Assembly: GCA_958296245.1 (NCBI GenBank)
Contig: OY282458.1
Coordinates: 2,098,197-2,162,196 of the forward strand
DNA: 64,000 bases
DNA from: an uncultured Dehalococcoidia bacterium
GTDB lineage: Bacteria > Chloroflexota > Dehalococcoidia > Lucifugimonadales > G958296245
Direction of reading: 5' to 3'
Numbering within the stretch: position 1 is the first letter of the stretch; every line of letters begins with the position of its first letter. Below, piece by piece: positions 868 through 22,337 of this stretch. Made by a program: the position numbers and the translations under genes. The notes under the pieces were generated by a model. That model searched no databases and was not told the origin of the DNA. It saw only the letters and a program-made list of their open reading frames with translations.

Positions 868-3800
868 CTACGGATTGTGCTCGAATAGCCCCAAGGAGCA
901 GATGATCTGCGGCTCGTGGGCCTCGGCTGCGCCGTCATCCGTCAGGCACAGCCGGTCCTCCTCACGCAGTGACATGACTATATGGGCCAGTTGGGTGTCA
1001 TCCACGCCGCTGCTGAGTTGGCGATTCAGTGTATCGACCGCCGACTGGCGCAGAGGGTAGCGGTATACGTCGTTGATGGCCTTGTGGAGCGCGTCTACGT
1101 CAAACAGCTGGCCTCTGATATCGTCCGCGTACTTCTTGAGGCGGGTGTAGGTACGAAACCTTGCGCCGGAGGGCCGCCCGAGCTGCCCGCCAACCCGCTT
1201 CTCCTCCCGGACGACGTGGCGGACGCCCTCGGCGACGAGCGGGTGATGATTTTCGTGGTGCGGCTGCGCCGGGGTGTCGGGCTTGCACTCGGCGGCGGAG
1301 AGAATTTCGAGCTGCGACTCTGTGATGCTACGGCCCTCGCGGTCGACGTAGGCGAGGGCGTCGTTGCCGTCGGCGGTGCGCATGAAGACGAGGACGCCCT
1401 CGGGCCGCTGGGCGATGGGAGCGTGCTTACGCGACGAGAACACGACGTCGGGCAGGTCGGCGACGGCCTTCTCCAGCTTCGGGTCCGCGCTGATGGCGTT
1501 CTTCCATATCTGGTAGGCGTGGGATGCCAGGTCAACCTCGCCGTCGGGGTCTCCGTCCAGGATACCCGCCCGCTCGTGGTAGAGGTTCAAGATGGTCTGG
1601 TCGTCGTCCTCGTCCTCGAAGAACGCCTCGTCCGCGCCGACGACCTCGGCGTTCTCCTGAAGCCGCGTTTGCACACGGTTGCGAAGGTTGATGATGCGCT
1701 CCACGCCGTCGGCGGGCAGAAAGGAATGGCAAAGTATCTCTTCCGCCTTCTGCCCGATGCGGTCCACCCGGCCCGCCCGCTGGATGAGGCGGATGATGGC
1801 CCAGGGCAGGTCGTAGTTCACGACTACGTGGCAGTCCTGGAGGTTCTGGCCCTCGCTGAGCACGTCGGTGGCGACGAGGACGCGGAGCTCCTGTTCCGGC
1901 GCCGCTAGGCCCGGTCGCCGGTTGCTGTTGGGGCTGAATCGCCATGCAAGCCGGGTGGGGTCGTCGGAGCTTCCGGTAACGCCGGCCATGTCCTTCACGC
2001 CCCTGGCCTTGAGCTGCTCTTCCAGGTATAGAACGGTGTCGGCGAACTGGGAGAAGACCAGCGCCTTCCCGTCCGCGAACGTCTCCGTAAGGAGCGTGTG
2101 GAGGGCGTCGAGCTTGGCGTCGTGGGCAGGGTCCCAAGCCCCGTAGGTCTGGAGCAGGCCCAAGAGGGCGTTTGTGTCGGACTGGAGCTCGCTCTCCAGG
2201 GAACCGCGGAAGAGGTCGGGGCGGAGCCACTTGAAGCGCCTCTTGTAGCGATCCTCGTACTCTGAGTATATCTCGGCGGCGCGTTCTTCGAAGCCCGCCG
2301 CCGTCCGGTTTGGGCGGTCCCCTGAGGTGATTCCCTCGTCTTCCGGTCCCTGTTCGTCGTCAGGATCGGAGAGCGCTCCCCTCGCCTCGTCCGCGTCCTC
2401 GTCGGTGAAACGAGAGTCCAGCATCTCGGCGTCCTGCGTGCCGAGGGGCAGGGGCAAGTCGTTGCGGATGGCGTGGAGGAAGACGTAGTTGCGGAGGACG
2501 TGACGTTCGACGGATTGCAGGAAGGCCATGCCGCTGCTCTCAAGGCGCTTGAACAGGTTCGTGCGGCAGAAGCCCATCAGCCGCTTTCCAGCGCGAGAGA
2601 GGTCGTCTATCTGATGCTTCTCCGCAGCAGTCGGCGGCGTCCCGGGTTTGTTGGAGACGTAGTTGCCGAGGCCGTAACGCGGCAGATGCAGCGCGTTTAC
2701 GGTATCGACCACCTTCTCCGAGTAGAGCTTGGCGTACTGGTCGTCGGGGTCGGACTCGTCGATGGCGAACTTCACGGTCTTGGGCGCGCGGGTCGGGAAG
2801 AAGGATTGGGTCCCGTCCTCGTAGGTGAGGAACTTGCGCCCGGTTTCCTGGTCGGTCTCGGCGTAGTTGTCCTGGATGAAGCCGCGGGTGCGGCGCACGA
2901 GGTAGAGCCGCATCAGGTCGCGCCAGTCGTCGGCGTGCTCGCTGAGGTCGAAGGCTGCGAGCGTGCGCGGAGACGCCTGATGACGACTGCTGAACTCGAT
3001 ATCTCCAAGTTCGCGCAACAGTCTTTCGGGTCGGATGCCAAGGTCCTGGTCGTCCTCCACGAAGACGCGCAGTTGGCTGGACAGGTCCAAGTAGGTCTTG
3101 TTGTAGGGCGTCGCCGATAGGAGGATGCACCTGCTCTCGTTGGCGCGGACGTACTCCTGAATAGCGCGGTACCGCTTGCCCTCGCGGTTTCGGAGGTTGT
3201 GGCTCTCATCGATGACGACCAGCCGGTAGCGGCGCAGATTGGGCAGTTCTGAAAGCACTTTGCTGAGCGACAGCACCCTGGCCCGTAGCTGGTACTCGTG
3301 GACGTAGTCTTCCCACATGGGAACGAGGTTCTTGGGGCACAGGACCAGCGTCTCAAGGCCGTAGTCGTCCTCGAAGATCCGGGCGACGGCGGTGGCCATG
3401 AGGGTCTTGCCCAGGCCCACCACGTCGCCGATGAGCACGCCGTTGCGTTTGTTCAGATGGTGGGCCGCAATCTTGACTGCTGCGGCCTGGAAGTCGAACA
3501 GGCGGTCTCCGAAGACCTTTGGAATCCTGAACTCGGCGAGGCCGGCCCGGGCTTCGTGTGAGAGGTGGTAGGCCATCTTGAGATATACGTGGTAGGGCGG
3601 TATCAGGGCCTCCCGCGCCCAACTCTCTTCGATTATCCGAAGCAGCTCGTCCGTAATGTCCACGCAGAACCGGTCGCGCCACCTGTCCTCGAACCACTTC
3701 TGGAGCTTGAGGGCGGCGTCGTGGTCGAGCACGTCCACGTTCAACTCGCCCTGCCCGGCGAGGCCGGCGAAGGTCAGGTTGCTGCTGCCCAGGTAGCCCA

Positions 3801-4266
3801 CGATGGGGTTGACGGGGTCGCCGCGGAACAGCAGGTAGAGCTTGGCGTGCAGCGGGTGGCGCAGGAAGAGCTTGACGACGACCTTCTTGGCCCGAAGCTG
3901 GGATGCAAGTTGGCGCAGGGTCTGCTCGTCCGAGTTGGTGGGCGCTCCGATGGTGAGCTGTTGGCGCAGCTGCTCGGCCAGCTGGACTCTGAGACGGTGC
4001 GCCGTCCGGTTGTCAATGCCGGAGTGTGTGTTGAGCAGGGTCAAGGCGTCTCTGAGTTCCTCGTGGGGAAGACGCTGCATCCCGATGAGGACGCGGCAAG
4101 GGCCGCCGCCCTGGTCCCAGTCGTCCACGTAAGGCGCAAGACCGCCCCAGCCGCGCAGGTTGAAGTAGCCGACGCAGAAGTCCGCACGTGAAGAGAGCGC
4201 CAGGGTCTCCTGCAGGGCAGGCAGGAGGCCGGAGCCGGACTCAAGGTTGTCGAAGATGCGCGGCAT
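868..4266 (-). CDS. SNF2-type helicase with N-terminal phospholipase D-like domain (putative anti-phage)
   Basis: 1,132 residues. Residues about 125-195 hold one PLD half-site, HAKLYL at 140-145 followed by SSNLT at 161-165 (HxK...N). A superfamily 2 motor follows: Walker A GDVVGLGKT at 280-288, DESH at 353-356, LSATPYNKT near 385, then the second RecA lobe with VFSQFADT near 735 and motif VI QRAGRVDRIGQ near 830. PLD folds in this setting are candidate nucleases, and the motor would move along DNA. It leads the minus-strand set helicase, AbrB, PIN, Eco57I methylase. NCBI names relatives 'phospholipase D-like domain-containing anti-phage protein'; defence function here is inferred from architecture and neighbours. 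Confidence 0.85.
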   Translation of the reverse strand: MPRIFDNLESGSGLLPALQETLALSSRADFCVGYFNLRGWGGLAPYVDDWDQGGGPCRVLIGMQRLPHEELRDALTLLNTHSGIDNRTAHRLRVQLAEQLRQQLTIGAPTNSDEQTLRQLASQLRAKKVVVKLFLRHPLHAKLYLLFRGDPVNPIVGYLGSSNLTFAGLAGQGELNVDVLDHDAALKLQKWFEDRWRDRFCVDITDELLRIIEESWAREALIPPYHVYLKMAYHLSHEARAGLAEFRIPKVFGDRLFDFQAAAVKIAAHHLNKRNGVLIGDVVGLGKTLMATAVARIFEDDYGLETLVLCPKNLVPMWEDYVHEYQLRARVLSLSKVLSELPNLRRYRLVVIDESHNLRNREGKRYRAIQEYVRANESRCILLSATPYNKTYLDLSSQLRVFVEDDQDLGIRPERLLRELGDIEFSSRHQASPRTLAAFDLSEHADDWRDLMRLYLVRRTRGFIQDNYAETDQETGRKFLTYEDGTQSFFPTRAPKTVKFAIDESDPDDQYAKLYSEKVVDTVNALHLPRYGLGNYVSNKPGTPPTAAEKHQIDDLSRAGKRLMGFCRTNLFKRLESSGMAFLQSVERHVLRNYVFLHAIRNDLPLPLGTQDAEMLDSRFTDEDADEARGALSDPDDEQGPEDEGITSGDRPNRTAAGFEERAAEIYSEYEDRYKRRFKWLRPDLFRGSLESELQSDTNALLGLLQTYGAWDPAHDAKLDALHTLLTETFADGKALVFSQFADTVLYLEEQLKARGVKDMAGVTGSSDDPTRLAWRFSPNSNRRPGLAAPEQELRVLVATDVLSEGQNLQDCHVVVNYDLPWAIIRLIQRAGRVDRIGQKAEEILCHSFLPADGVERIINLRNRVQTRLQENAEVVGADEAFFEDEDDDQTILNLYHERAGILDGDPDGEVDLASHAYQIWKNAISADPKLEKAVADLPDVVFSSRKHAPIAQRPEGVLVFMRTADGNDALAYVDREGRSITESQLEILSAAECKPDTPAQPHHENHHPLVAEGVRHVVREEKRVGGQLGRPSGARFRTYTRLKKYADDIRGQLFDVDALHKAINDVYRYPLRQSAVDTLNRQLSSGVDDTQLAHIVMSLREEDRLCLTDDGAAEAHEPQIICSLGLFEHNP

Positions 4267-4416
4267 AGGTACCTCTACTCGTCACTCCGGTGGGTGTTGT
4301 TCTACACCTAGTCTAAACAAAATGGGCGGGGCAGAGTCGCTTCGTTGGAAGCCGGGTTAGGAGATGGATGATCAACCGTCTGCTTGAATAGCCCCGGTGA
4401 GATGGGCCGCGGCGGT

Positions 4417-6756
4417 CTATGGCTTTGGCATGCGGTAGCCGACATTTATCTCGGTAAAGATATACTTGGGGTTGCTCGCGTCGTCGTCCAACTTGTGACG
4501 CAGTTTCGTCACGAAAGCACGCACCAAATGTCCCTGGCCTGAATACTCCGTCCCCCAGACCCGCTGCAACAACTGGCCTTGGGTCAATACACGCCCGGCG
4601 TTGACGGAAAGCTCAAAGAGGAGCTTATACTCGGTCGAGGTCAACGGCGCCGGCCGGCCGGATACGGTCACGCTCCGTTCTGCATAGTCGATGGTCAGGT
4701 CGCCCAGGCGGTAGGACTGATTCGTCGGGGCCGCGCTGGCCCGTTCCCACTTCCGCAGGGACGCTCCGACCCTCGCCAACAATTCAGTCGCAGAGAAGGG
4801 CTTGATCATGTAGTCGTCGGCTCCCATGTCGAGAGCCTTTGCTATGTTCTCCTCCTGATCGTTCGCGGACAGGAAGATGATCGGCACGTGGGACACCTTG
4901 CGGATGCGGCTCATCAACTCGAAGCCGCTGGTCCCGGGCATCATCAGATCCAACAGGACAAGGTGAGGCTGCTCCATCTGCAACAGGTGCATCATCTCAT
5001 CCGGGTTGCCGGCCCCTAACGGCCTGTATCCGTGGCCGGAGAGTATGTTTCGGAGGAGCCGCAGAACTTGAGATTCGTCGTCCACCGCGAGAATCCGCCT
5101 TCCATCACCCGACCTAGCGTACCCGGCGTCGCCGGCGGTCTCCTGAGCGGCAACGGCTTCAGGAATCGTAAGGGTGATGCGCGCGCCTCGTCCCTCACCG
5201 TCACTCTCGGCCCTGATGCGGCCTCCATGCGCCTCGACTATCCCCTTGCAGATCGCAAGCCCCAGACCCTCGCCTGCGACCTCCCGCGCACCCATCCGAG
5301 AAAACTTCCTGAACAGGCCGGTAAATTGTTCGGCGGATATTCCCCTGCCCTCGTCCGTTACGGAGATGGTCACGTAGGGCTCGTCTCGTGATGCAGTTAC
5401 CCTGATCGTCGAGGTCTCCGCAGAGTACTTGGACGCATTGGACAGCAGATTGTTCAGCACCTGAGCGATACGCTGCTTATCCGCCTCGATTCTAGGCAGG
5501 TCCGGCGGGAGGTCAACCTCGACGGGATTCTGTGCCCCTTGGCGGGCGAACGCGGCCTTCGCTTCGTCAACCAGAGTCGCCACGGCCGTGGGTTCGAGGC
5601 TTACCGACAACGCCCCGGCTTCTATTTGCGTCATGTCGAGGAGGTTGTTGACGAGATCATTCAGGTTATCGGCCTGCTCGTCTATCATCCGGAAGTACTG
5701 AAGGAGCGCGGAGATGCCGGGGGGACGGGAGCTGCCGCTCAAGACGATGGACGTGGATCCCTTGATCGTGGTCAGGGGCGTTCTCAGCTCATGGCTCACC
5801 ATGGCGAGAAACTCGTTCCGCAGCCGTTCGGCCTCCTCCAAGGGCGTCATGTCCTGGATAACGGCGACGGCGGACGTGATCTCGCCGTCTTTGGAGTGGA
5901 TCGGCGTGGCGTTGACTAGGACCATGGTCGTCCCGCCGTCCGGGTGGTCGAGCAGTATCTCCTCTGCGCGCACCACCTCGCCATGCTCCAGGGCACGGGT
6001 CAGCGGCCGCTCGTCGATGGAGTACTCGCGCCCGTCCGTCCGCCGGTAGATCGCCATCTTCTGGAACTGCTCCATCTTGCTGCCGGGCATGGTTGGGACG
6101 CCGATGATGCGCTCCGCCTCCTGATTGACGAACTCGATGGTTCTTGTCTCGGCATCAAGCACCAGGACGCCTACCGGCGACGTCGTGACGAGAGTCTCCA
6201 AGCGCCGCCTCTCAGTCTCCGCATCCCTATGCCTGAGGGCGTTGCCGATGGCCGCCGCCGCCTGAGACGCGAACATGACGAGGGTCTCCTCGTCCTCAAG
6301 CGTGAACTCCCGTCCGCCTTCCTTCTCGGTCAAGTAGATGTTGCCCACAGACTCGCCGAGATGACGGATCGGCGCGCCGAGGAATGTCTTCATGGGCGGG
6401 TGACGCTCAGGGAAGCCAACCGACTCGGGGTGCTGAGTGAGGTCGGTGAGCCGCAGCGGCTCCCGGACCTCGTTCAGGTACCCGAGGATTCCCAACCCCT
6501 TGGGCAGGCCCCCCAGCAGTTGGCGCTCTTCAGGAGTGATGCCGGAGGTGATGAAGTCCCGTATGCGCCCTGAGTCGTCGAACACCCCGACTGCGCCATA
6601 CCGGGCGTCGGTCAGCGAGCGGGCGCCGTCCACAACCTCTTGCAGGACGGTATCGAGGTCGAGGCTTTCCGTGACGCGGAGGCTGACCTCGCTCAGCCTG
6701 GACAGACGAGCGCGCAGCGTACGGTTCTCCCGTCTGAGCCTGTCGGCTTCCTTCAT
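4417..6756 (-). CDS. GAF-PAS histidine kinase fused to receiver and OmpR/PhoB-type winged helix
   Basis: 779 residues from the ATG at 6756; an in-frame extension to 7035 is open but runs through the control region. Order: coiled N-terminus, GAF (about 25-170), PAS (185-305), HisKA with SHELRTPLTTI (near 320), HATPase with LLSNASKYS and GEGLGLAI, receiver with VDDE and LLDLMMPG (about 555-670), and a full OmpR-type winged helix ending FVTKLRHKL...NVGYRMPKP. Sensor kinase and DNA-binding regulator are one polypeptide; there is no transmembrane segment, so it should sense a cytoplasmic signal through GAF/PAS. A TATAAT -10 lies at 6820-6825. The PhoB-like boxes upstream (6894-6943) are its likely target. 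Its 5' end is duplicated at 9643-9807. Confidence 0.92.
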   Translation of the reverse strand: MKEADRLRRENRTLRARLSRLSEVSLRVTESLDLDTVLQEVVDGARSLTDARYGAVGVFDDSGRIRDFITSGITPEERQLLGGLPKGLGILGYLNEVREPLRLTDLTQHPESVGFPERHPPMKTFLGAPIRHLGESVGNIYLTEKEGGREFTLEDEETLVMFASQAAAAIGNALRHRDAETERRRLETLVTTSPVGVLVLDAETRTIEFVNQEAERIIGVPTMPGSKMEQFQKMAIYRRTDGREYSIDERPLTRALEHGEVVRAEEILLDHPDGGTTMVLVNATPIHSKDGEITSAVAVIQDMTPLEEAERLRNEFLAMVSHELRTPLTTIKGSTSIVLSGSSRPPGISALLQYFRMIDEQADNLNDLVNNLLDMTQIEAGALSVSLEPTAVATLVDEAKAAFARQGAQNPVEVDLPPDLPRIEADKQRIAQVLNNLLSNASKYSAETSTIRVTASRDEPYVTISVTDEGRGISAEQFTGLFRKFSRMGAREVAGEGLGLAICKGIVEAHGGRIRAESDGEGRGARITLTIPEAVAAQETAGDAGYARSGDGRRILAVDDESQVLRLLRNILSGHGYRPLGAGNPDEMMHLLQMEQPHLVLLDLMMPGTSGFELMSRIRKVSHVPIIFLSANDQEENIAKALDMGADDYMIKPFSATELLARVGASLRKWERASAAPTNQSYRLGDLTIDYAERSVTVSGRPAPLTSTEYKLLFELSVNAGRVLTQGQLLQRVWGTEYSGQGHLVRAFVTKLRHKLDDDASNPKYIFTEINVGYRMPKP

Positions 6757-6819
6757 TGGCCAGTCCCGGCTACGACATGTGGTTCTAGCGGCTGTACGGA
6801 GTCTCACGCCGACGCCTGG

Positions 6820-6825
6820 ATTATA
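6820..6825 (-). promoter_or_regulatory. -10 element for the kinase-regulator fusion gene
   Basis: The minus strand reads TATAAT here, about 64 bases before the ATG at 6756. There is no good -35 match 16-18 bp upstream, which suggests activator dependence. The duplicate copy downstream has TATAGT at the same place. Confidence 0.55.
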
Positions 6826-6893
6826 GCACTCGCTGCTATCGACTCGTAGAGGAACTGCCGGGGGGCGGTGGGAGCTCCGCGACACCGGGAATG

Positions 6894-6957
6894 GTGACAC
6901 GAAAGTAACACCGAGGCCCTTGACGGTGACACCAAAGTAACACGGCCCGCCTACAAT
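6894..6957 (+). promoter_or_regulatory. Tandem PhoB/OmpR-like box pair with rightward -10 (copy 1)
   Basis: Two boxes, 6894-6911 and 6926-6943, each read GTGACAC-4 bp-GTAACAC: 7-bp direct repeats with 4-bp spacers (11-bp period), and the boxes start 32 bp (about three turns) apart. Eight bases after the second box is TACAAT (6952-6957), the position a -10 takes behind a pho box. The region lies between the leftward kinase fusion gene and the rightward gene at 7126. The geometry matches known PhoB-family operators; the identity of the binding protein is inferred. Confidence 0.65.
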
Positions 6958-7125
6958 CGGCAGGGATGAATAGAGACCCAGTTTCGGTGAACCCTGGAAC
7001 TGGATGTGCTCTGAACCCCTTCGAACAATCAACATACTTGATAATAGGCTTCCACGTCGTTGGGTTCAGCGGGGGGGAGTGGGGGGCGGTCATTACGGGG
7101 AACAACGAGAGGTTGCGCTGTTGAC

Positions 7126-8454
7126 ATGATGGTCTCACCAGAGCTCCAGACCCAGATTCTGGGTTTACTGTACACGGCCCCAACACGCTTCTCAGGTCTG
7201 GACGCGACAGGGCATTCTTGGTACAGGCCAAAGGAATTGGCCGAGGCACAGCAGGCGTGGCTAGCGACTCAAGAGCCGGGCAGCGTGGCCGCCATAACTC
7301 CACCTGTCCGTCAGACCAATGAGCCCTTGGCCCCTTGCGCTGTTCACGAGAACTTTCTCGTTCGCGTCCGGACGTCTCCCCGAGGGCAGCATAGAGTAGA
7401 CTTGGTTGATCTGCGGGACGGGTCAACTACAGTTGGAGGGTTTCCCTATGGACCCATGATCCGGCCTCAAACCCTGATACCTCACGTCAAAATTAGCTCC
7501 ATCAAAGAGGTTATGGCCGGAGACCGCGAAGCCATAGAACTGCAGGCCGAGCCCAGACGGCATACCATCGAGGTTGATAGGAATCCTCTGGGCAGAATGG
7601 CAGAGGAGTACAAGCTGACAGTAGATAAGGAGCGAGGCATACTGATAAGCAACGTGTCCCTTTACAGGGGCAGGGCGTTCCTCGGTGACGAGCTACGTCA
7701 CGTCAAGTTCGAAGGAGCCGCCTTACAGCCTAACGCTCGACACAAAGGCATCACCGATGTTGTCCGCTTGTTGTATGGAGCACGGTATAGCTTCTCCACG
7801 TTGCGAGCATCCATCCGAGAGTGGTACAGGCATAGAGAAGGGACCGGCAGGCCCTCGCAATCCAAGACGGAGGAGATCAGGTCGCGACTGTGGGTCGACA
7901 ATCCATCCCGCTTTCGGCAGGAGATAGAAACTTGCGGCCCTTCCCACGGCCCCATCGTTCTTCTACTCAACGGGGACATTTGGTGGCAAGGCTACTCGTC
8001 TGGTGTGGCAGTGACAAACTCCCCGAAGGAACAGATTCCAGGCGGAGTCGAGGTCAAGGTCCTCAGCAGGCCAGTGAGTCCCTCTTACTATTGGGACGCG
8101 GATTACGCGATCCTTTCTCAGATTCCTCTAGAGCCATCCTGGCTTATTTCCGGCCTACGGATGGAGCCGGTTGGCCGAATGATGTATGCAGGCCGAGAGT
8201 CGATACGTGTTCAGGCGGAACCCGACCAGGAAGACAACAACGGTTGGTACTGGTGGGAGGGCGCGGACGAGTATGAGTTGCTCATAGATGCTGAGCGCGG
8301 CGCCCTTCTGCGGATCGAAGCCCGCAGTCAAGGCGAAGGGTTCTCAGTTATCGAAGTGGAGGATATCGAGTTCGACGTGTCGATACCGGAAAGTACATTT
8401 TCCTTTGCTGTTTCGCCTGGTATGTCGGTCGAGGTCAACCCACCGGCGCCGTAG
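7126..8454 (+). CDS. Unrecognised protein with two LolA/DUF2092-like repeat halves
   Basis: 442 residues from the ATG at 7126 (an in-frame extension to 7060 exists). I do not recognise a named family. The sequence appears to contain two related halves: IELQAEP...AEEYKLTVDKERGILI near 145-190 and IRVQAEP...ADEYELLIDAERGALLRIE near 365-410, the pattern of beta strands seen in LolA-like or DUF2092 domains. No signal peptide is evident. It lies just downstream of the PhoB-like boxes, so it may be part of the kinase regulon, although the segment between the two duplicated control regions may also be an insertion. Confidence 0.6.
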   Translation: MMVSPELQTQILGLLYTAPTRFSGLDATGHSWYRPKELAEAQQAWLATQEPGSVAAITPPVRQTNEPLAPCAVHENFLVRVRTSPRGQHRVDLVDLRDGSTTVGGFPYGPMIRPQTLIPHVKISSIKEVMAGDREAIELQAEPRRHTIEVDRNPLGRMAEEYKLTVDKERGILISNVSLYRGRAFLGDELRHVKFEGAALQPNARHKGITDVVRLLYGARYSFSTLRASIREWYRHREGTGRPSQSKTEEIRSRLWVDNPSRFRQEIETCGPSHGPIVLLLNGDIWWQGYSSGVAVTNSPKEQIPGGVEVKVLSRPVSPSYYWDADYAILSQIPLEPSWLISGLRMEPVGRMMYAGRESIRVQAEPDQEDNNGWYWWEGADEYELLIDAERGALLRIEARSQGEGFSVIEVEDIEFDVSIPESTFSFAVSPGMSVEVNPPAP

Positions 8455-8568
8455 CTCCACAGTTTGGGTCCAGGGTGAACCTGCTCCCGTTGCCGGGGTC
8501 GATCCGGTAGTAGGAGCGGTTCACGGGCTGAGGAAGCCACCACAGGCCGTAAGGTCCACTCGTCCTCT
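8455..8568 (-). pseudogene. Coding-like remnant of an unidentified gene
   Basis: No open gene of normal length is present, but the minus strand can be read without a stop as a peptide containing GLWWLPQPVNRSYYRIDPG, with mostly G/C third codon positions. This looks like a fragment of a lost gene next to the kinase-gene fragment at 8572-8647. I cannot name the parent family. Confidence 0.3.
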
Positions 8569-8571
8569 ATG

Positions 8572-8647
8572 CGCGCCGCCTTTCAGTCTCCGCATCCCTA
8601 TGTCTGAGGGCGTTGCCGATGGCCGCCGCCTGAGACGCGAACATGAT
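8572..8647 (-). pseudogene. Internal fragment of the kinase fusion gene
   Basis: About 75 bp match 6203-6278 inside the kinase gene (the GAF-PAS linker) nearly base for base, with a 3-bp deletion. The fragment has the same orientation as the full gene. Together with 9643-10020 it marks the two ends of a decayed duplicate, with the gene at 8734-9633 between them. Confidence 0.75.
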
Positions 8648-8733
8648 CGTCGACGGCATCACCTATGCTTCGAGGCTTGTCGGTCGGCGAGGGGATGTGA
8701 ATTGCAGAGGCTCATAGAAAGGAGCTGGGTCTG

Positions 8734-9633
8734 ATGGTCGATACTGACACACGAGTTGACAATCTTCTGAACTCCATCGTCGGTTGTGCATTTGTGGTCG
8801 CGATCGACGAAACTGGCCTCACGCCAGAAGACGTAGCAGATCCGAAGACCGGTCTGCAGATGGCCGCAGCGTGCGTCGAATCCGTGTTCAAGTACCGCTC
8901 GGACTATGACCTGGTCGCGCCTGGGGTGCTGACTCTCGCAAGGGAGAAGGTGGCCCAGGCGCGCGCGTTGATTGAGCACCCCGATACCGCGTGGTGGTTC
9001 GATGACGTAGACCCCCGCGCGCAGGCCTGGCTCTCCGTACACGGGACTCTGGACAAGTTCATCTATGGCATACCGCCGGATACTTTGGCGTGGCGTCAAC
9101 CGAAAAACCCACCGAGGGACTGGGAGCTTTACGCACAGAAGCCCTACGGCAACCAGATCACATCGACCCTGTACGGCCCTTACCTTACGTCCAAACTTCT
9201 GGCCTACGAAGACCGGGTGGGCGACTACCTATGCGAGTTCCCGCTGGCGTGGTGGTCTATCCGCTTCCTCGAGGACGTTCGGGTGTTCGAGATTCACGGC
9301 CCGTCCGACTGGCATGACCTATGCGTTAGGTATCCCGCAAGAGACACTGAGGACGACCGTCTGGTACCAAATTGGGGGGCTGCCTCGGAAGAGTGGGACG
9401 GCGTTCACCTGAGCTTGGGCGGACTACTGACTGCGGAGCAGAACCGATACGAATCTCCTGCCGGATGGACCATGCTGGACACGTGGCACGCTGAGCAGAC
9501 TTTCTGGTTGCGCGCGCTGAAGACCAGAACGAAGCGTCGACCGGACTTCGACATAGGGCTGGGGCCTCCCGACATCCACGGATGGCGGTTTCCTCATTTT
9601 GGCGGGGAAGACGATGCATTGGTACGCTTTTAA
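8734..9633 (+). CDS. Hypothetical protein, 299 aa
   Basis: A complete frame from ATG with AAAGGAGC a few bases upstream. I do not recognise the family. It is soluble, rich in Trp and Asp (AWWFDDVDPRAQAWL, LAWWSIRFLEDVRVFEIHG) and has no signal peptide or obvious catalytic motif. It lies exactly between two fragments of a duplicated kinase gene (8572-8647 and 9643 onward), so it has replaced or been inserted into that duplicate. Coding is supported by length, ribosome site and GC-rich third positions. Confidence 0.6.
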   Translation: MVDTDTRVDNLLNSIVGCAFVVAIDETGLTPEDVADPKTGLQMAAACVESVFKYRSDYDLVAPGVLTLAREKVAQARALIEHPDTAWWFDDVDPRAQAWLSVHGTLDKFIYGIPPDTLAWRQPKNPPRDWELYAQKPYGNQITSTLYGPYLTSKLLAYEDRVGDYLCEFPLAWWSIRFLEDVRVFEIHGPSDWHDLCVRYPARDTEDDRLVPNWGAASEEWDGVHLSLGGLLTAEQNRYESPAGWTMLDTWHAEQTFWLRALKTRTKRRPDFDIGLGPPDIHGWRFPHFGGEDDALVRF

Positions 9634-9642
9634 CTGGAGTTC

Positions 9643-9807
9643 GTCGTCGAATACCCCGACTGCGCCATACCGGGCGCCGTCCACGACCTCTTGCAGGACG
9701 GTATCGAGATCGAGGCTTTGGGTGACGCCAGGCTGACCCTCGCTCAGCCTGGACAGACGAGCGCGCAGCGTCCGGTTCTCCCGTCTGAGCCTGTCGGCTT
9801 CCTTCAT
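9643..9807 (-). pseudogene. Truncated 5' copy of the kinase-regulator fusion gene
   Basis: From the ATG at 9807 the frame repeats the first residues of the full kinase (MKEADRLRRENRTLRARLSR) and continues to VGVFDD, with a 15-bp internal deletion, then leaves the homology at about 9643 and runs antisense into the 8734-9633 gene. GAF, PAS, kinase, receiver and winged-helix parts are absent, so it cannot work as a kinase. Confidence 0.85.
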
Positions 9808-9948
9808 TGGCCAGTCCCGGCTACGGGCGACGTGTGGTTCTCAGCGGCTGTACGGAGTCTCACGCCGGCGCCTGGACTATAGCACTCGCTGCTATCGACT
9901 CGTAGAGGAACTGCCGGGGGCGGCGGGAGCTCCGCGACCCCGGGAATG

Positions 9949-10012
9949 GTGACACGAAAGTAACACCGAGGCCCTTGACGGTGACACGAAAGTAACACGG
10001 CCCGCCTACAAT
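9949..10012 (+). promoter_or_regulatory. Tandem PhoB/OmpR-like box pair with rightward -10 (copy 2)
   Basis: Boxes at 9949-9966 and 9981-9998, each GTGACACGAAAGTAACAC, again 32 bp apart and followed after 8 bp by TACAAT (10007-10012). Expected transcription starts near 10019, leaving a leader of about 40 bases before the ATG at 10060. In this copy the two boxes are identical to each other. It should drive the FtsX-type ABC operon. Confidence 0.68.
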
Positions 10013-10059
10013 CGGCAGGGTAAGGGAGCGACAGGAACCCAACGAAAGGAGAGACGGTC

Positions 10060-10350
10060 ATGACCACGCTGCTGAAGTTCGCCGCGGGACGCCAGATCCT
10101 CGTGCTGCTGTTGGTCATTGCTCTCGCGTCGGGCGCTGCCGGATTGATCCCATTCGGATCGGGTCCTATCGGACCGGAGGCGGTCTCGGCAGACTCCCGC
10201 TGCGACGAGCACTACGACCACACCCACGGGGCTGGATGGTGGATGCGCACCGACGCGTACTCAGGGGGCGGGTATGGGCTGGGTCCGCATGGCTACGTCA
10301 CCCAGTGGGCAGATCATGAGAACTCCGTAAGGGACTGGTGTTCCAGCTAG
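10060..10350 (+). CDS. Small secreted protein, first gene of the FtsX-ABC operon
   Basis: 96 residues. A signal peptide is clear: TTLLKF...RQ, then the hydrophobic run ILVLLLVIALASGAAG with small residues at the cleavage site. The mature part is about 60 residues rich in His, Gly, Trp and Asp (DEHYDHTHGAGWWMRTDAY) with two Cys, one near the start and one near the end, that could pair outside the cell. The ribosome site AAAGGAGAG precedes the ATG. I do not know a homologous family. Being first behind the boxed promoter, it may be a transported or sensed peptide, or an accessory of the ABC system; that is inference. Confidence 0.7.
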   Translation: MTTLLKFAAGRQILVLLLVIALASGAAGLIPFGSGPIGPEAVSADSRCDEHYDHTHGAGWWMRTDAYSGGGYGLGPHGYVTQWADHENSVRDWCSS

Positions 10351-10410: not shown

Positions 10411-10836
10411 ATGATCATGAACATAAGAAGCGGTGGTGGACTCATAGGCGCAGTGCTGATCTGGTTTCTCCTAGCGGCGTGTTCCTCCCAAGGCGGCCGC
10501 GAACCCACATATCCCTCAGGCGAAGCGGACAGTGAGAGAACTATGGCGTACCTCGCGGAGAACTTCCCCACACGGGACCAGATGCTCAGCGTGCGCGAGT
10601 GCGTGACTGAGAGGACAGGGTATGAGTTCTCTGAGCTGGCCGCTGACTTTGGGCCTGAGTATCTGACGAAAACGCCGCCCCCGGGTGTTCCAATCCCCCC
10701 GGGCGAGGTGTTTGATACCCAGGTTGACTGCGCCTTCGACCTTGGTCTCGAAGACAGGTTCTTCCCACCGTGGGATCACGAGGCGCTCCGCGACGATGAC
10801 GATAGCAGGACGGCCAGTAGAACTTGGAGGGAGTAG
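10411..10836 (+). CDS. Putative lipoprotein of the FtsX-ABC operon
   Basis: 141 residues. The N-terminus GLIGAVLIWFLLAACSSQ is a lipoprotein signal with lipobox LAAC, so Cys near residue 24 would be lipid-modified and the protein anchored outside the membrane. The rest is acidic and proline-rich with no family I recognise. AAGGAG at 10401-10406 supports the ATG at 10411. Its stop is 3 bp before the ATPase start, so it belongs to the transporter operon and may act as an extracytoplasmic partner. Confidence 0.75.
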   Translation: MIMNIRSGGGLIGAVLIWFLLAACSSQGGREPTYPSGEADSERTMAYLAENFPTRDQMLSVRECVTERTGYEFSELAADFGPEYLTKTPPPGVPIPPGEVFDTQVDCAFDLGLEDRFFPPWDHEALRDDDDSRTASRTWRE

Positions 10837-10839
10837 GAG

Positions 10840-11538
10840 ATGAATAACGCACAGACCGCAAGCCTCGCCCTCATGGGACGAGGGCTGGTTCAGAGCTTTG
10901 GCGAACGGAGCGTCCTGGACGGTGCCGACGTGGATCTCCACCACGGGGACGTTCTGGCCATCGTGGGCGTGAGCGGCTCTGGGAAGTCGACTTTGCTCTA
11001 CGCCCTGGCCGGGCTGCGGCAGCCGCAGGGCGGCACAGTCGCGTGGGGCGGCCACGCCGACGTCTGGAAGCTGCACGAACCCGAAATCACGCTAGTCCGT
11101 CGAGCGACGTGCGGGTTCGTCTTCCAGTTCCCCGCGTTCCTGAACGACCTTACGGTCGCGGCGAACGTCGCCGTTCCGCTCGTCGTGTCGGGAGACAAGC
11201 CGCGCGATGCTCGGGAGCGGTCGCGTGAGTTGCTTGACCGGTTCGGCCTCGGCCCTCTCGCGAAGGAGTACCCGTCGACGCTCTCAGGTGGCGAGTTGCA
11301 GCGCGCGTCGATAGCACGGGCGTTGATTATGGAGCCCAGCATCGTGTTTTGCGACGAGCCGACCGGCGCGCTGGACGAGAGCAACTCGGAGCTTGTGGTC
11401 GGCGAGGTGCAGAGGATCGCCGAAGAGTTCGGCGTCGGCGTTTTGATAGTCACCCATGATCCCTCGGTATGGGCCAAGTGCGACCGCGTGCTCCGGCTGG
11501 ACCAGGGAAGATTGGTAGAGGAGGGTACGGCGTCATGA
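10840..11538 (+). CDS. ABC transporter ATP-binding protein (LolD/MacB type)
   Basis: 232 residues, normal for this class. Walker A GVSGSGKST near 46-54, Q-loop in GFVFQF, signature LSGGELQRASIARAL near 148, Walker B IVFCDEPTGALD near 168, and the H-loop in LIVTHDPS. EPTGALD is typical of ATPases that pair with FtsX-type permeases and drive mechanotransmission or release rather than classical import. Its last codon overlaps the start of the first permease (ATGA), so the two are translationally coupled. Confidence 0.93.
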   Translation: MNNAQTASLALMGRGLVQSFGERSVLDGADVDLHHGDVLAIVGVSGSGKSTLLYALAGLRQPQGGTVAWGGHADVWKLHEPEITLVRRATCGFVFQFPAFLNDLTVAANVAVPLVVSGDKPRDARERSRELLDRFGLGPLAKEYPSTLSGGELQRASIARALIMEPSIVFCDEPTGALDESNSELVVGEVQRIAEEFGVGVLIVTHDPSVWAKCDRVLRLDQGRLVEEGTAS

Positions 11539-13754
11539 CTCTTTTCTTTCGGTTCATCCGGCCCAGATCGTGGCGTTCGCTCTCGGTCTGGATTCCACTA
11601 ATAGCGGTTGGCATCATCTCGTGCGTCGGCCTTTCGCTGGCGATGGGGTTCCGTTCCGGCGTGCTCGCCCAATACGACACTGCCACGCTGCGGGACGGAG
11701 GCAGCGGCTTCGCACCCATGACCAGGGAAGCCGGAGAAGCCCCCCTGCGGTCATCCCGGCCGGTTGCCACCGGCTACGGACCTCTTAGAGTCACGGTCTT
11801 CTGGGGAGAGGCAGGCCAGCGGCTCGACCTTCCCGGTATCCCCAAGGTCGAGGTGAGCGGCGCCATTCTGGCCTCCCCGGCTGTGCTCGCACAGTTGAAG
11901 GACGATTGGACGGGTGAGTTAGGAGCTTGGCTGGGTGACAGGCCGGCGCACGCGCTCCCCGACGAGGCGCTAGCCCACCCGCGCGAGATGGTGATTGTCG
12001 AGTTCACTGACACGGTCCCGCCAGAGAGCGCGTCGGGTTTCCAGCCGATTCGCGTCGGCAGGACTTATGCGCCTGATACCAGCTTTGTGATCGTAGGCCT
12101 TCTTGTTCTAGCGCTCCCGTCCATAGCGCTGGCGAGGGCCGGGGCTGCGATGCATCTCAACACCAGGTCCCGGCGGTACGGTCTGCTGAGGGTTCTGGGC
12201 ACACCGCCCCGGCAGCTGGCGGCGGTCATCGCGACCGACATGGCGATTCCCATACTGGCGGGCGCTCTGGTCGGCTCGGTCGTTTACGCGGCAGTCATGT
12301 CGTCATTGAGGTCGTTCACCATTGCGGGGAACTCCTACTGGGGGAGTGATCTGATCCTTCCCGTGGCGTTGGCAATCGCGCTACCGCTGGTCGTCGTCCT
12401 GGTCGGGCTGATGAGCGTCGTCCGCATGGTACTCCGCGCCAGCCGCGATCCTATTGGGATCCTGCGCGGGGACCGACGTCGGCGTGTCTCGCTGTTAGCC
12501 TATGCGGCGGCGGCCGGCATCTTGGCCGGTCCCGCCGCCGTGATCGCGGCCCCCGACGCGAATGCTACGCTGTCGCCGTGGCTGATTGTGGCAGGGATGC
12601 TCCTGATGGTCGTGGGCCTGGAGGGAGTGGCCCGCGTCGCAGTGGCCGTGTCAGGGAAGCTGCTCGTGGACCGGACGAAGGCGCAGGTGGCAGGATCGAG
12701 GATGTCAAGGTCAGGAGCCGAAGCCCTCCTGGGCGTGTCCGCCACGTCGGTGGCGGTTCTCCTAATCGTATTTGTCGTGTACTCAAACGTTGATAACCGC
12801 CCGACCCCTGTCGGCGACTTCGACGTGCTGGCTCGCCTTCCGAACCTCAGAGAGCCCGAACCAATCGTGCGCGCGATGTCTGATATAGATGGTGTAACCC
12901 GGGTCGTAGCGGTGGGACGGATCATTGCCACCTCAGACGAAGAACTGGGACAAGTGTATGCGATGACTTGCGACGATGCGCGTGGTTCGGTGAAGCTTGA
13001 CGCGCCATGCACCGCGGGGAGCATCTACTTGGGGCAAGGCCTCTCCGGCGTGGATACTGTGACGTTGGCCGCTGATACACCTGGGCCCGGAGGTGAGCCT
13101 TCCTTCATAGACGAATCGGTTCCAGGCACCTACACGGTGGGGGGGCAGGTCACCGCCTCATGGATCACCCAGACGAGAGACGATGCTGTGCTAATGGTGG
13201 AACAACCCCCCATCCCGCACCACACCCTCCTTCTGGTAACCACCGACGGTTCCCCGGGTTCTCTTCGCCGGGTCATAGAAGGTCTGCGGGTCCGCCCCGA
13301 AGAGTCGTACCCAACCACCCGGGCCGCCCTCACCGCAGGGGTCACCAACGAAGCGTTGGTCTTCTTCCCGCACCTGTTCTTCATGGCCATCACAGCCGCA
13401 GGGATGGCGGCGAGCGCGCTGCTGTTCGCGGTGCTGCTGCTCTTCCGCCAACAGCAGGTGGAGTTCAGGACGCTGCGCGCTCTGGGCGCGACCCGGCTGC
13501 TACTGGCCGTCGACCTCGCGCTACTGTTCGCCGTACCACTGATACTCGCCTTTGGGCTGGCCGTCGCCTCCGGCGTGGCTCTAGCCACTTCCTACAACAC
13601 GGCGTTCGGCGTCCCCGCGCCCCAGGTAAACTCGCAGGCTGTGTTCGTCTTAGCCTTCGTGCTGGCTACTGGCATAGCTGGGACAGCCTTCGTAGCAGGA
13701 AGGGCAACCCGCATACTGCCGCTGATAACCGACCCCGACGCAACGACCGGTTGA
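11535..13754 (+). CDS. FtsX-type ABC permease, first of a tandem pair
   Basis: 739 residues from the ATG that overlaps the ATPase stop; an upstream in-frame ATG at 11469 lies inside the ATPase gene and is rejected. Topology: one N-terminal membrane helix (WIPLIAVGIISCVGLSLAMG), an external domain of about 170 residues, a group of FtsX-like helices with SRRYGLLRVLGTPPRQL, further helices, a second external domain near 430-590, and a C-terminal FtsX block with QVEFRTLRALGATRLLLAVD. This two-FtsX-block layout resembles fused permeases of the BceB/actinobacterial type. The substrate is not evident. Confidence 0.88.
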   Translation: MTLFFRFIRPRSWRSLSVWIPLIAVGIISCVGLSLAMGFRSGVLAQYDTATLRDGGSGFAPMTREAGEAPLRSSRPVATGYGPLRVTVFWGEAGQRLDLPGIPKVEVSGAILASPAVLAQLKDDWTGELGAWLGDRPAHALPDEALAHPREMVIVEFTDTVPPESASGFQPIRVGRTYAPDTSFVIVGLLVLALPSIALARAGAAMHLNTRSRRYGLLRVLGTPPRQLAAVIATDMAIPILAGALVGSVVYAAVMSSLRSFTIAGNSYWGSDLILPVALAIALPLVVVLVGLMSVVRMVLRASRDPIGILRGDRRRRVSLLAYAAAAGILAGPAAVIAAPDANATLSPWLIVAGMLLMVVGLEGVARVAVAVSGKLLVDRTKAQVAGSRMSRSGAEALLGVSATSVAVLLIVFVVYSNVDNRPTPVGDFDVLARLPNLREPEPIVRAMSDIDGVTRVVAVGRIIATSDEELGQVYAMTCDDARGSVKLDAPCTAGSIYLGQGLSGVDTVTLAADTPGPGGEPSFIDESVPGTYTVGGQVTASWITQTRDDAVLMVEQPPIPHHTLLLVTTDGSPGSLRRVIEGLRVRPEESYPTTRAALTAGVTNEALVFFPHLFFMAITAAGMAASALLFAVLLLFRQQQVEFRTLRALGATRLLLAVDLALLFAVPLILAFGLAVASGVALATSYNTAFGVPAPQVNSQAVFVLAFVLATGIAGTAFVAGRATRILPLITDPDATTG

Positions 13755-13764
13755 CGCGCGCGGC

Positions 13765-15993
13765 ATGAGGCTGTTCTTCCAATTCATCCGGCCCCGCTCG
13801 CGGCGGTCTCTCTCCGCTTGGATGCCACTGATAGCCGTGGGTCTCATCGTGTGTGTGGGACTCTCGCTGGCGATGGGGTTCCGGTCCGGAGTGCTCGCCC
13901 GGCACGACGCCGCCACAGTACGTGACGGCCCTCCCGGCCTACCGCCGAGGACCCAGCCGGTTGAGGGGCCGCTGCGTTCGTCTGAGGTGGCCGCTACCGG
14001 CTACGGGCCTCTGGTCGTCACGGTGTTCTGGGGAGAGGAGGGACAGCGGCTCGGTCTTCCCGGTATTCCAGAGGTCGAACCGAGCGGTACCGTTCTGGCC
14101 TCCCCGGCGGTACTCGCTCATCTCAGGGACGATTGGACGGGTGAGTTGGCTGGCTGGCTGGGCGAAGGGCCTGTACGAGAGCTTCCCGATGCGGCGCTGG
14201 CCCACCCGCGTGAGATGGTGGTCGTAGAGTTTACTGATGCGGTTCCACCGGGAATTGCGCAGAGGTTCCATCCGATTCGGGCGGGTAGGAGTTGGGCGCC
14301 TGAAACGGGGTTCGTGATCATCGGGCTCATCATACTCGTGCTCCCGTCGGTGGCGCTGGCCAGAGCCGGAGCGGCTGTACACCTTAACGCCAGGTCGCGG
14401 CGCTACGGACTATTGAGGGTCCTGGGCGCGCGGCCCCGGCAGTTGGCTGTGGCAATAGCAGCCGATATGGCGATTCCCATGCTGGCGGGCGCCTTGGTTG
14501 GTTCAATCGCCTACTCGGTTGTCATGTCCTCTTTGGGATCGTTCAGCCTCGCTGGGACCTCGTATTGGGCCAGCGATCTGGTCCTTCCTGTCGCGCTGGC
14601 AATTGCCTTGCCGCTGGTCACCGTCGCCGTGGGCTTCTTGAGTGTCGCTCGAATGATCCACCATGCCAGCAGTGATCCCCTCGGGACGCTGCGGAGAGAC
14701 CGGAGAAGACGACGTGTCTCTCGCCTATCTTGTCTAATGGCGGTCGGTGCGATAGTGGGTCCTGCTGCCGTATTCGCCTCCCCCGAGGCGGACTGGCTGC
14801 TCCCCGCCGGGATACTCTTGAGCGTGGTGGGCCTTGAGGGATTGACCCGGTTAGCAGTCACTCTTGCGGGCAGTGTATTCGCCGATCGGACACGGGCTCA
14901 GATATCAGGATCGAGGATGTTGCATTCAGGGTCCGTAGCCGTTCTGGGCGTATCCGCCACTTCGATCGCTGTTCTTTTTATTGTGTTTCTTGTGAACTCG
15001 AACTTAAAGAACCTCCCATCCCCAATAGGGACTTTCGATGTTCTAGCCCATCTCCCGAACCTCGATTCGTCCGAACCGATCGTCCGTGCGATGTCTGATA
15101 TAGATGGTGTCAGCCGGGTCGTGGCGGTGGGAAGGATCATTGCCGACTCGGATCAAAAACTTGGATGGGTATACACGATGACCTGCGACGATGCGCGCGG
15201 CTCAGTGAAGCTCGACGCCCCATGCACCACGGGGAGCATCTACTTGGGGCAAGGGCTCCCCGGCGTGGATACGGTAACCTTGGCGGCCGCGCCTGATGTT
15301 GGAGCCCCGCCTGGGTATGTAATTCTGTCGCGTTCGGCAGATTACACAGACGAATCAATCCCAGGCGCCTATCCGGTTGGGGGTCGAGTCGACGCTTCCT
15401 GGATTGCATACACGAGGAGGGGAGCTGTGCTAATGGTAGACCAGCCCCCCATCCCGCACCACACGCTCCTTCTCGTCACCACGGACGGCTCCGCGGGGTC
15501 TCTGCGCCGGGTAATGGAAGGTTTTCGGAATCGTCCTGAAGAGTCGTATCCCATAACCCAGGCTGCCCTTACGACCGGTCTCGATGAAGTCTCCTTGATT
15601 ATCTATCCCTACATGTTCGTGATTGCCATCACAGCCGCCGGGATGGCGGCTGTCGCGCTGCTCTACGCGGTCATGCTGCTCTTCCGCCAACGCGAGGCGG
15701 AGTTCAGGATGCTGCGCTCGCTGGGCGCAACCCGTATGTTGCTAGCCGTGGACCTCACGTTGCTGTTCGCAGTCCCACTGATACTCGCTTTCGGCCTCGC
15801 GGTCGCCTCCGGCATGATCCTGGCTGTCTGCTACAACACGGCTTTCAGCGTCCCAGCTCCCCAGGTAAACCCGCAGGCAATATCGGTACTGGTCTTCGTG
15901 CTGGCGGTTAGCATGGCGGCAACCATCCTGGTAGCAGGAAGGGCAGCCCGAATACCGCCGCTGATAACCGACCCCGACGCAACGACCGGCTGA
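13765..15993 (+). CDS. FtsX-type ABC permease, second of a tandem pair
   Basis: 742 residues beginning 10 bp after the first permease. It is co-linear and closely similar throughout, sharing the opening LFFQFIRPRS, the phrase SDIDGV(T/S)RVVAVGRIIA, and the ending LPLITDPDATTG/PPLITDPDATTG, so the pair is a tandem gene duplication. Differences concentrate in the external domains. With one ATPase gene and two permeases, a heterodimeric channel over an ATPase dimer is the simplest model. About 190 bp without a recognisable gene follow, up to nurA on the other strand. Confidence 0.88.
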   Translation: MRLFFQFIRPRSRRSLSAWMPLIAVGLIVCVGLSLAMGFRSGVLARHDAATVRDGPPGLPPRTQPVEGPLRSSEVAATGYGPLVVTVFWGEEGQRLGLPGIPEVEPSGTVLASPAVLAHLRDDWTGELAGWLGEGPVRELPDAALAHPREMVVVEFTDAVPPGIAQRFHPIRAGRSWAPETGFVIIGLIILVLPSVALARAGAAVHLNARSRRYGLLRVLGARPRQLAVAIAADMAIPMLAGALVGSIAYSVVMSSLGSFSLAGTSYWASDLVLPVALAIALPLVTVAVGFLSVARMIHHASSDPLGTLRRDRRRRRVSRLSCLMAVGAIVGPAAVFASPEADWLLPAGILLSVVGLEGLTRLAVTLAGSVFADRTRAQISGSRMLHSGSVAVLGVSATSIAVLFIVFLVNSNLKNLPSPIGTFDVLAHLPNLDSSEPIVRAMSDIDGVSRVVAVGRIIADSDQKLGWVYTMTCDDARGSVKLDAPCTTGSIYLGQGLPGVDTVTLAAAPDVGAPPGYVILSRSADYTDESIPGAYPVGGRVDASWIAYTRRGAVLMVDQPPIPHHTLLLVTTDGSAGSLRRVMEGFRNRPEESYPITQAALTTGLDEVSLIIYPYMFVIAITAAGMAAVALLYAVMLLFRQREAEFRMLRSLGATRMLLAVDLTLLFAVPLILAFGLAVASGMILAVCYNTAFSVPAPQVNPQAISVLVFVLAVSMAATILVAGRAARIPPLITDPDATTG

Positions 15994-20692: not shown

Positions 20693-21451
20693 CTACTCCG
20701 GCAAGAATCTATCCAGGTCGTAGTTGCCGCTGGTGAATTGAATCAACTTGAGCCAGTCTATCGCGCCAGACTGATCACAGAAACCGTCGATGAAGTTCTT
20801 CGTGAGTCTGTTGGTCAAGCGGCCTTTCCCCAAGGCGTACAGTTCATTGTGTTCTTTAGCACGGTATCCAATCGGCTTGATGATGTCCGTGTAGAGGTCC
20901 CTATTTTCGCTGACGAGGTACCAGAAGTTCTGTCCAACGACTTTCAGATACCCTCGCTTCATGTGGGCGGTCCGAGTTTTACCGTAGCAGATGCCGAGAA
21001 CAGATTGGATGTTGATGCCGCTCCTAGATTGCCTGACTCTCATGACGGCTGTCTTGAGGTTCTGTTCGAGCTCATTGTGTTGGGCGCTGTTGCCCCAACT
21101 CGGCCCTGACTTCACAGACACTATATAGTGGATGCTCCTATTGAAGAATTCCAGGTCAACCCCAGGTGCGGTTGACTTATGGCCCCCGGAAGTCATCCCT
21201 GCGACGAAGACCGCGAGACCTTCCAAGAAATCGCCGAATAACTCTTCTTCAGAAGAAGCCAGAAACGCCTCGAGGAGGCCAGAGATAATCTCGTTTGCAG
21301 TTTCGACATTCTTGGCCCGAAACAAATATGGATTCTTCGTAAGCAGCCTCTTGAGCTGCAACTTCTTCATGGATTCGAGACGTCGCTCGTGGAAATCAAC
21401 GATGTTCTCATTCACGTACTGGTACACGGCCTCAAGGTCAAGTGGCTCCAT
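20693..21451 (-). CDS. PmeII-family type II restriction endonuclease
   Basis: 252 residues from the ATG at 21451, chosen because AAGGAGGTGG lies just upstream; the start overlaps the methylase gene by 14 bp. Recognisable family features are the opening VNENIVDFHERRLESMKKL, NPYLFRAKN near 38, the acidic SSEEELFGDFLEGLAVFV near 67, and the catalytic block GVDLEFFN...YIVSVKSGPSWGN near 97-120, a PD-(D/E)xK arrangement with the ExK replaced by VKSG. Coupling with a cognate methylase supports a complete type II system. The recognition sequence cannot be read from the sequence. Confidence 0.85.
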   Translation of the reverse strand: MEPLDLEAVYQYVNENIVDFHERRLESMKKLQLKRLLTKNPYLFRAKNVETANEIISGLLEAFLASSEEELFGDFLEGLAVFVAGMTSGGHKSTAPGVDLEFFNRSIHYIVSVKSGPSWGNSAQHNELEQNLKTAVMRVRQSRSGINIQSVLGICYGKTRTAHMKRGYLKVVGQNFWYLVSENRDLYTDIIKPIGYRAKEHNELYALGKGRLTNRLTKNFIDGFCDQSGAIDWLKLIQFTSGNYDLDRFLPE

Positions 21452-22337
21452 TGTGGTCCACCTCCTTGTCTGATGACGATGCGGCGTATGGAATTTCCCT
21501 GTGTTCTGCGACACCCGGCAGCGGGATCTGCGTGTTCTGTATCCGCTGGCGGCTCAAGTCTACGTACTCGCGGTTCGTATCGATGCCGATGTAGTGTCTG
21601 CCGAGTCGCAATGCCGCAACTGCGGTACTGCCCGAACCGATAAACGGATCCAGCACTGTATCGCTCGGTTGAGTGAAGAGCCTAATGAACCAAGCCGGCA
21701 GACCGATCGGAAAGACGGCGCTGTGGCGTTTGTTAGAAGACTCGGTAGCCATATGTATAACGTTGTTCGGATATACCATATCACGGCCAACCCAATTGGA
21801 GACATTCTTGCCGAATCCACTGCCAACGCGCGACTCATCCCTCATCTTGTCGGTATCGCTCAGACTCGACAGCCTGTGCTTTGCCCAGCCTCCAACCGGC
21901 ACCATGACTGCTTCTTGATACATGTTGAACTTCTTGTGTCTATTGAACTGAATCAGTCGTTCCCAATTGTCCCGAAATCGGTTGGGCCACTTCCCCGGGT
22001 AAGAGTTCTTCTTGTGCCATACGAATTCTTCGGTCCACAACCAGCCACGCTTCCTCATTTCGAGAATCAGATCAATCACGTACACGTGCCGCTCCCCGTT
22101 CGCGACGCGTTCCTTGATGTTCAGCACGAACGTGCCTGTTGGCTTCAATACCCTGAAGAACTGATCTGCTTTGGGCATGAACCAATCAACATAATCGTCC
22201 GGTGATATGCCGCCGTAAGTCTGTTGCCGTTGATCGGCGTAGGGTGGCGAGGTGAAGATCAGATCAATCGAGTCGCTTGGCACGTCCTTGAGGACGTCTT
22301 CGCAGTCGCCGAGGATGATGTTGTCCAGATAGTTCAT
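21438..22337 (-). CDS. Type II DNA methyltransferase (N4/N6, SPPY class)
   Basis: 299 residues. Catalytic motif TSPPYAD near 30-36 precedes the SAM-binding motif DPFIGSGSTAVAALRLGRHYIGIDT near 230-254, the order of beta-class amino-methyltransferases; SPPY fits N4-cytosine or N6-adenine methylation. The C-terminus overlaps the endonuclease gene, so host protection is made first and the nuclease by coupled translation. Low-GC codons are more frequent here than in glyS or hemW, suggesting transfer. Confidence 0.92.
   Translation of the reverse strand: MNYLDNIILGDCEDVLKDVPSDSIDLIFTSPPYADQRQQTYGGISPDDYVDWFMPKADQFFRVLKPTGTFVLNIKERVANGERHVYVIDLILEMRKRGWLWTEEFVWHKKNSYPGKWPNRFRDNWERLIQFNRHKKFNMYQEAVMVPVGGWAKHRLSSLSDTDKMRDESRVGSGFGKNVSNWVGRDMVYPNNVIHMATESSNKRHSAVFPIGLPAWFIRLFTQPSDTVLDPFIGSGSTAVAALRLGRHYIGIDTNREYVDLSRQRIQNTQIPLPGVAEHREIPYAASSSDKEVDHNGAT

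Follow-up and report, generated by a model that had tools for sequence, protein, structure and literature searches.

A duplicated PhoB-like operator beside a fusion kinase and before an FtsX-type ABC operon in an uncultured Dehalococcoidia bacterium

Introduction

PHO-box-type operators, among them those of Escherichia coli PhoB, Streptomyces PhoP and Mycobacterium tuberculosis PhoP, are built of 7-bp direct repeats separated by a 4-bp spacer (PMC4415409, PMC4832192). M. tuberculosis PhoP occupies such repeats as a tandem dimer, observes the 4-bp spacing strictly and extends to four repeats (PMC4832192). In the hybrid two-component systems (HTCS) of Bacteroides, histidine kinase, receiver and DNA-binding domain are joined in one chain that controls envelope-related operons (PMC11253607).

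Here we describe a locus in an uncultured Dehalococcoidia bacterium that resembles both groups. The whole 64,000-nucleotide stretch of DNA that was analysed is called the window. With PHO-box operators the locus shares an 11-bp period, placement just upstream of a -10 hexamer and a related winged helix. It differs in that the presumed regulator is fused to a kinase, in that the operator letters change between species, and in its targets, which are lipoproteins, surface proteins and transporters; a separate pstS box lies elsewhere in the genome. Like the HTCS, the window fusion unites its kinase, receiver and DNA-binding domain in a single polypeptide, but its input is a soluble GAF-PAS module instead of a membrane-spanning periplasmic sensor, its DNA-binding domain is of the OmpR type (Trans_reg_C) instead of the AraC type, and its operator is a direct repeat. 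No paper on this fusion-kinase family was found within the library searched.

Results

Both 64-bp control regions of the locus (6894-6957 and 9949-10012, plus strand) were re-read, and the original prediction of four GTRACAC half-sites in each, with 4-bp spacers, a 32-bp box offset and TACAAT 8 bp behind, proved exact. Operator copy 1 (6894-6943) has its half-sites at 6894-6900, 6905-6911, 6926-6932 and 6937-6943, and operator copy 2 (9949-9998) at 9949-9955, 9960-9966, 9981-9987 and 9992-9998. Each opens with GTGACAC-GAAA-GTAACAC (6894-6911 and 9949-9966), carries a second half-site pair 32 bp on (6926-6943 and 9981-9998) and, after 8 bp, reaches its -10 hexamer, at 6952-6957 for copy 1, supported by relatives, whose boxes keep a fixed spacing of 9-10 bp as counted in the conserved frame, and at 10007-10012 for copy 2, assigned from the sequence. 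Both thus show the 7-bp direct repeats, 4-bp spacer and short fixed distance to the -10 hexamer of OmpR/PhoB-type promoters. Neither has a good -35 hexamer, and box 2 overlaps the expected -35 position. Both read on the plus strand, pointing away from the minus-strand fusion kinase gene. The copies differ at a single base (6933), and all 28 half-site bases are identical.

The exact pair GTRACAC-N4-GTRACAC occurs four times in the 2,685,284-bp genome by pattern search, each time within copies 1 and 2, and a reversed control pattern has no match in the whole genome. A looser pattern combined with a -10 hexamer at fixed spacing recovers both copies and one stray genome-wide. If up to two mismatches are tolerated, shuffling the 64-kb window yields four matches in 3 cases out of 100.

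The fusion kinase gene occupies 4417-6756 on the minus strand. Its start (ATG at 6756, giving 779 aa) was chosen by homology of the first residues in relatives. Pfam analysis of the enclosing 872-aa reading frame gives the order GAF (about residues 33-179), PAS, HisKA (His322), HATPase_c, receiver (Asp603) and OmpR-type winged helix (about residues 665-779), in agreement with the predicted position of copy 1 beside a fused kinase with such a domain. No stretch exceeds a 19-residue hydropathy of 1.25, so the protein is predicted to lack a transmembrane segment and to be soluble. The phosphorylation sites are well kept, the His in 38 and the Asp in 37 of 39 homologues, and relatives of the kinase are found in 142 of the 147 genomes searched. 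Divergent from the operator, an extended -10 element (TGCTATAAT; 6820-6828, minus strand) marks a probable kinase promoter of the form TGnTAnnAT, which recurs upstream of the kinase in relatives (loci L019, L022, L024, L027 and L028) and in 18 of 91 kinase upstream regions against 3.4 in shuffles.

The closest solved structure to the GAF domain is the heme GAF-A domain of M. tuberculosis DevS (DosS; E about 1e-39). Residues aligned with DevS His149, the proximal heme His, and with DevS Tyr171 are present in the window kinase. The aligned His is poorly conserved among kinase homologues: it is replaced by Asp in the 82% identical orthologue of genome G022 and kept in 8 of 35 homologues. Heme sensing is therefore only a lead.

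Copy 2 lies at the end of a duplicated block (9636-10019, plus strand) and hence is not an independent site. The block is 94% identical to 6574-6964 over 352 aligned columns and takes in the entire kinase upstream region and the first ~50 kinase codons. A further remnant of kinase-gene DNA (8573-8648, plus strand; 94% identical to 6202-6278) lies upstream of it, and the duplicated kinase fragment is interrupted by a 299-aa gene (8734-9633, plus strand) with 60-69% identical relatives in genomes G039, G075, G087 and G099. The operator copies are alike because a DNA segment was duplicated and not through convergence, so that their likeness by itself is no proof of common function. One of the 20 differences in the block falls within the operator (Fisher p = 0.09), and selection on the operator after duplication is therefore not significant.

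Behind copy 1 lies a gene for a 442-aa protein (7126-8454, plus strand; start at 7060 in the open reading frame list), whose start codon lacks a good ribosome-binding site. The protein matches no Pfam or NCBIfam family, has no predicted transmembrane segment and finds no relative among solved structures by sequence search; its AlphaFold model (mean pLDDT 37) is too poor for a fold search, and on plasmids it has only two partial matches (26-28% identity). Its single relative among 146 other genomes, 44% identical, is in G010, where it stands behind lipoprotein genes in an operon divergent from a 57% identical kinase and provided with the box AATCACAGGAACATCACA-N9-TACCAT. This position inside a boxed, kinase-divergent operon suggests that copy 1 likely drives a real target, one that the predicted 'sensing and export system' had left out.

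Copy 2 is followed on the plus strand by a gene for a 96-aa protein with an N-terminal hydrophobic segment, probably exported to judge by its sequence (10060-10350), a 141-aa lipoprotein with lipobox LAAC (10411-10836), which is the first gene after the operator in relatives, an ABC transporter ATPase (10840-11538) and two FtsX-type permeases assigned by Pfam (11469-13754, 761 aa from the first start codon, and 13765-15993). Lipoprotein homologues (36-49% identical) hold the same place in L019, L022, L024 and L027. The LolD/MacB-like ATPase and FtsX-type permeases liken the operon to FtsX/MacB/LolCDE-type transporters. The operon differs in that the best NCBIfam matches of the ATPase (LolD, bacteriocin-972 export and MacB models) are all below cut-offs, that the permease matches no NCBIfam model, and that such a permease is rare, occurring in 6 of 250 genomes of the order (the window genome and five others). 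Named records of its relatives are Dehalococcoidia and Chloroflexota metagenome bins, some with sponge-like isolate names; none was found in viral contigs, and the AlphaFold model (mean pLDDT 40) is too poor for a fold search. The two permeases (11469-15993) are tandem paralogues, 71% identical; in those relatives that were examined, each operon has a single permease.

In three genomes of one family (G089, G062 and G077) the kinase is divergent from a lipoprotein/ABC/FtsX operon, and the G022 kinase, 82% identical to that of the window, is transcribed divergently from a lipoprotein gene. Boxes lie at the same place in these relatives, with other letters than GTRACAC (GGTCACG/GGTCATA, GGTCATG/GGTCATA and TTTCACG/TTTCACA). 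The three same-family relatives nonetheless keep 7-bp direct repeats, the 4-bp spacer, two boxes 32 bp apart and 9 bp to the -10 hexamer, and the G022 box too retains the geometry with changed letters. Given the adjacency of kinase and operon in relatives, the order kinase-operator-operon is probably ancestral, its two halves having been pulled apart in the window. The predicted link between kinase and FtsX-type operon thus recurs in other genomes, but copy 2 is a segmental duplicate. The kinases of G089, G062 and G077 (L019, L022 and L024) lack GAF and PAS, yet operator and operon are kept.

The check suggested with the original prediction, a search of relatives for the exact boxes, fails: among 146 other genomes of the order the one exact GTRACAC hit, in G022, is an 11-bp tandem array and not an operator. 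Since these letters are not conserved, geometry was compared instead. Across the genomes searched, the letters are private to this genome and only the geometry is conserved. The G022 arrays consist of the 11-bp repeat GTGACACTTWT (L025, about 4143-4365, and L021, about 9500-9560), share a flank (GGTTTGTGGAGAGAGGCGGCTGTGTCATGGGGATACTCTAGCACAG) and may be a mobile or regulatory repeat.

G022 also holds a duplication of its own, of operator plus lipoprotein gene (739 bp, 93%). One copy lies beside the kinase and is followed by another ABC transporter; the other stands in front of the ABC-FtsX operon, about 630 kb from the first. As read from these sequences, the duplication is independent of that in the window, and operator duplication is seen in two families.

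For a test across the order, 420 bp were taken from the start of each of 93 fusion-kinase genes and searched with a strict pattern. The pattern points away from the kinase in 18 of the 93 and in the opposite direction in none, where shuffles lead one to expect 0.18; the pattern was shaped on nine of the 18 cases and the remaining nine are new. The distance to the -10 hexamer is 9-10 bp in 16 of the 18. At a score of 12, a two-fold cross-validated profile, whose seed pattern was still informed by the first nine cases, detected a box at 34 of 90 fusion-kinase genes when read away from the kinase, whereas the reverse direction gave 3, distal positions 1 of 85 and shuffles 1.3; the other 56 genes have no box above threshold. 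Of the 34 boxes, 13 have an extra half-site upstream at a distance of exactly 32 bp, and 8 have one at 21 bp (nominal P of 8e-17 and 6e-9, respectively, assuming independence of related sequences), and neither offset played a part in box detection. These results indicate that boxes of this layout belong to the fusion-kinase family and not to the genome at large, and the predicted PhoB/OmpR-family layout holds up in its conserved geometry. In another class of the phylum, a box was found at 3 of 29 fusion-kinase genes (0.3 expected), and the fusion protein therefore does not require one. Genes divergent from boxed kinases encode lipoproteins and large exported proteins, and also others; that in L030 (G001) begins, by sequence, like a sigma-70-type factor.

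The genome encodes only four OmpR-type DNA-binding domains, the fusion kinase included. A PhoB-like regulator lies near pstS, whose box reads GTTAACA-N4-GTTAACC as against GTGACAC/GTAACAC in the operators. Copies 1 and 2 therefore do not share the box of the genome's own pst operon, nor do they precede phosphate-uptake genes, their putative targets being the 442-aa protein and the lipoprotein-ABC-FtsX operon. Because boxes track fusion kinases across the order, the fusion itself is the best candidate binder, and M. tuberculosis PhoP is a relative of its winged helix. A post hoc comparison of 21 kinases suggested covariation between a recognition-helix residue and half-site position 2 (partial Mantel r = 0.29, p = 0.0005). 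The rule did not hold up in 13 held-out kinases: the residue is Lys or Arg throughout, yet G occupies the position in only 13 of 26 half-sites, and among 114 columns the residue came 4th.

Discussion

Computation established the operator geometry and its conservation, the association with this kinase family, the duplication and, for relatives, the succession of kinase, operator and operon. Together they make it likely that the single-chain fusion binds both operator copies as a private PhoB-type activator of two envelope/export outputs. We infer the binder to be the kinase's own winged helix and the control to be positive, and the signal sensed and the cargo exported are likewise inferred. In the proposed mechanism, a soluble regulator with GAF/PAS input would be made from its own promoter and its receiver phosphorylated by its own kinase part, upon which winged helices would bind the four half-sites in tandem and recruit RNA polymerase to the -10 hexamer adjoining the second box. 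Duplication of the operator together with the kinase 5' end would have given one regulator two outputs, the 442-aa gene at copy 1 and the exported-protein/lipoprotein/ABC-FtsX operon at copy 2.

One alternative is that a single copy works, copy 2 being the ancestral operon promoter and copy 1 a duplication relic with no real target, or the reverse. In its favour, the copies are part of a plain segmental duplication, the operator shows no significant purifying selection, and the gene behind copy 1 is poorly provided with a ribosome-binding site. Identity at every half-site base, the kinase-divergent relative of the copy-1 gene in another family and the duplicated operator of G022, both copies of which lie before open genes, make this reading unlikely. 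It is less likely still that the fusion binds the boxes as a repressor and keeps the promoter silent until released by a signal. The overlap of box 2 with the expected -35 region makes occlusion geometrically possible; the box-to--10 spacing, however, is held at 9-10 bp, and a good -35 hexamer is lacking here as it is in PhoB-activated promoters.

Service of the boxes by another OmpR-type regulator, such as the PhoB-like protein beside pstS, with the kinase adjacency merely inherited, we regard as improbable. Three such regulators are available, and the pstS half-site GTTAACA agrees with the half-site AGTAACA in 5 of its 7 letters, but the operators do not have the letters of the pstS box, the complete operator is confined to two places, next to the fusion kinase and before the operon, and boxes follow fusion-kinase genes across the order in one orientation. 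Chance or low-complexity repetition merits almost no credence as the source of the four half-sites: although sets of four mismatched sites do turn up in shuffled DNA, perfect matches are absent elsewhere in 2.69 Mb, the geometry is kept with changed letters in relatives, and the family-wide pattern, profile and extra half-site tests refute such an origin.

The duplicated operator is real, and the finding is more general than first thought: the fusion appears to be a single-chain regulator typical of its lineage, with a PhoB-type operator of its own that was duplicated in this genome. A wider and more tentative proposal, to which we give somewhat less than even weight, is that the soluble single-chain proteins of this order that join kinase, receiver and winged helix make up a family of private regulators. 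Each would have a divergent operator of four half-sites to itself, in which geometry is fixed, letters drift and operator duplication repeatedly adds envelope operons. Such a family would constitute a natural series of insulated regulator-operator pairs. If correct, the assignment of the fusion to copies 1 and 2 would provide a testable regulator-operator pairing, half-sites and promoters being predicted, in a group that is widespread but uncultured and whose signalling has received little study. It would also give the hybrid systems of Bacteroides a soluble counterpart that uses a PhoB-type domain. With a series of operators of fixed geometry and changing letters, one could test directly how specificity evolves in the OmpR family and how operator duplication enlarges regulons.

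Two other loci of the window deserve mention. At 868-4266 on the minus strand, a 1132-aa helicase of the SNF2 type, which carries a PLD nuclease domain at its N terminus, is similar to DrmD and to HKD+Snf2 defence models. At 20693-22337, also on the minus strand, a type II restriction-modification pair combines an EcoO109I-type endonuclease (E 2e-69) with an N6/N4 DNA methylase.
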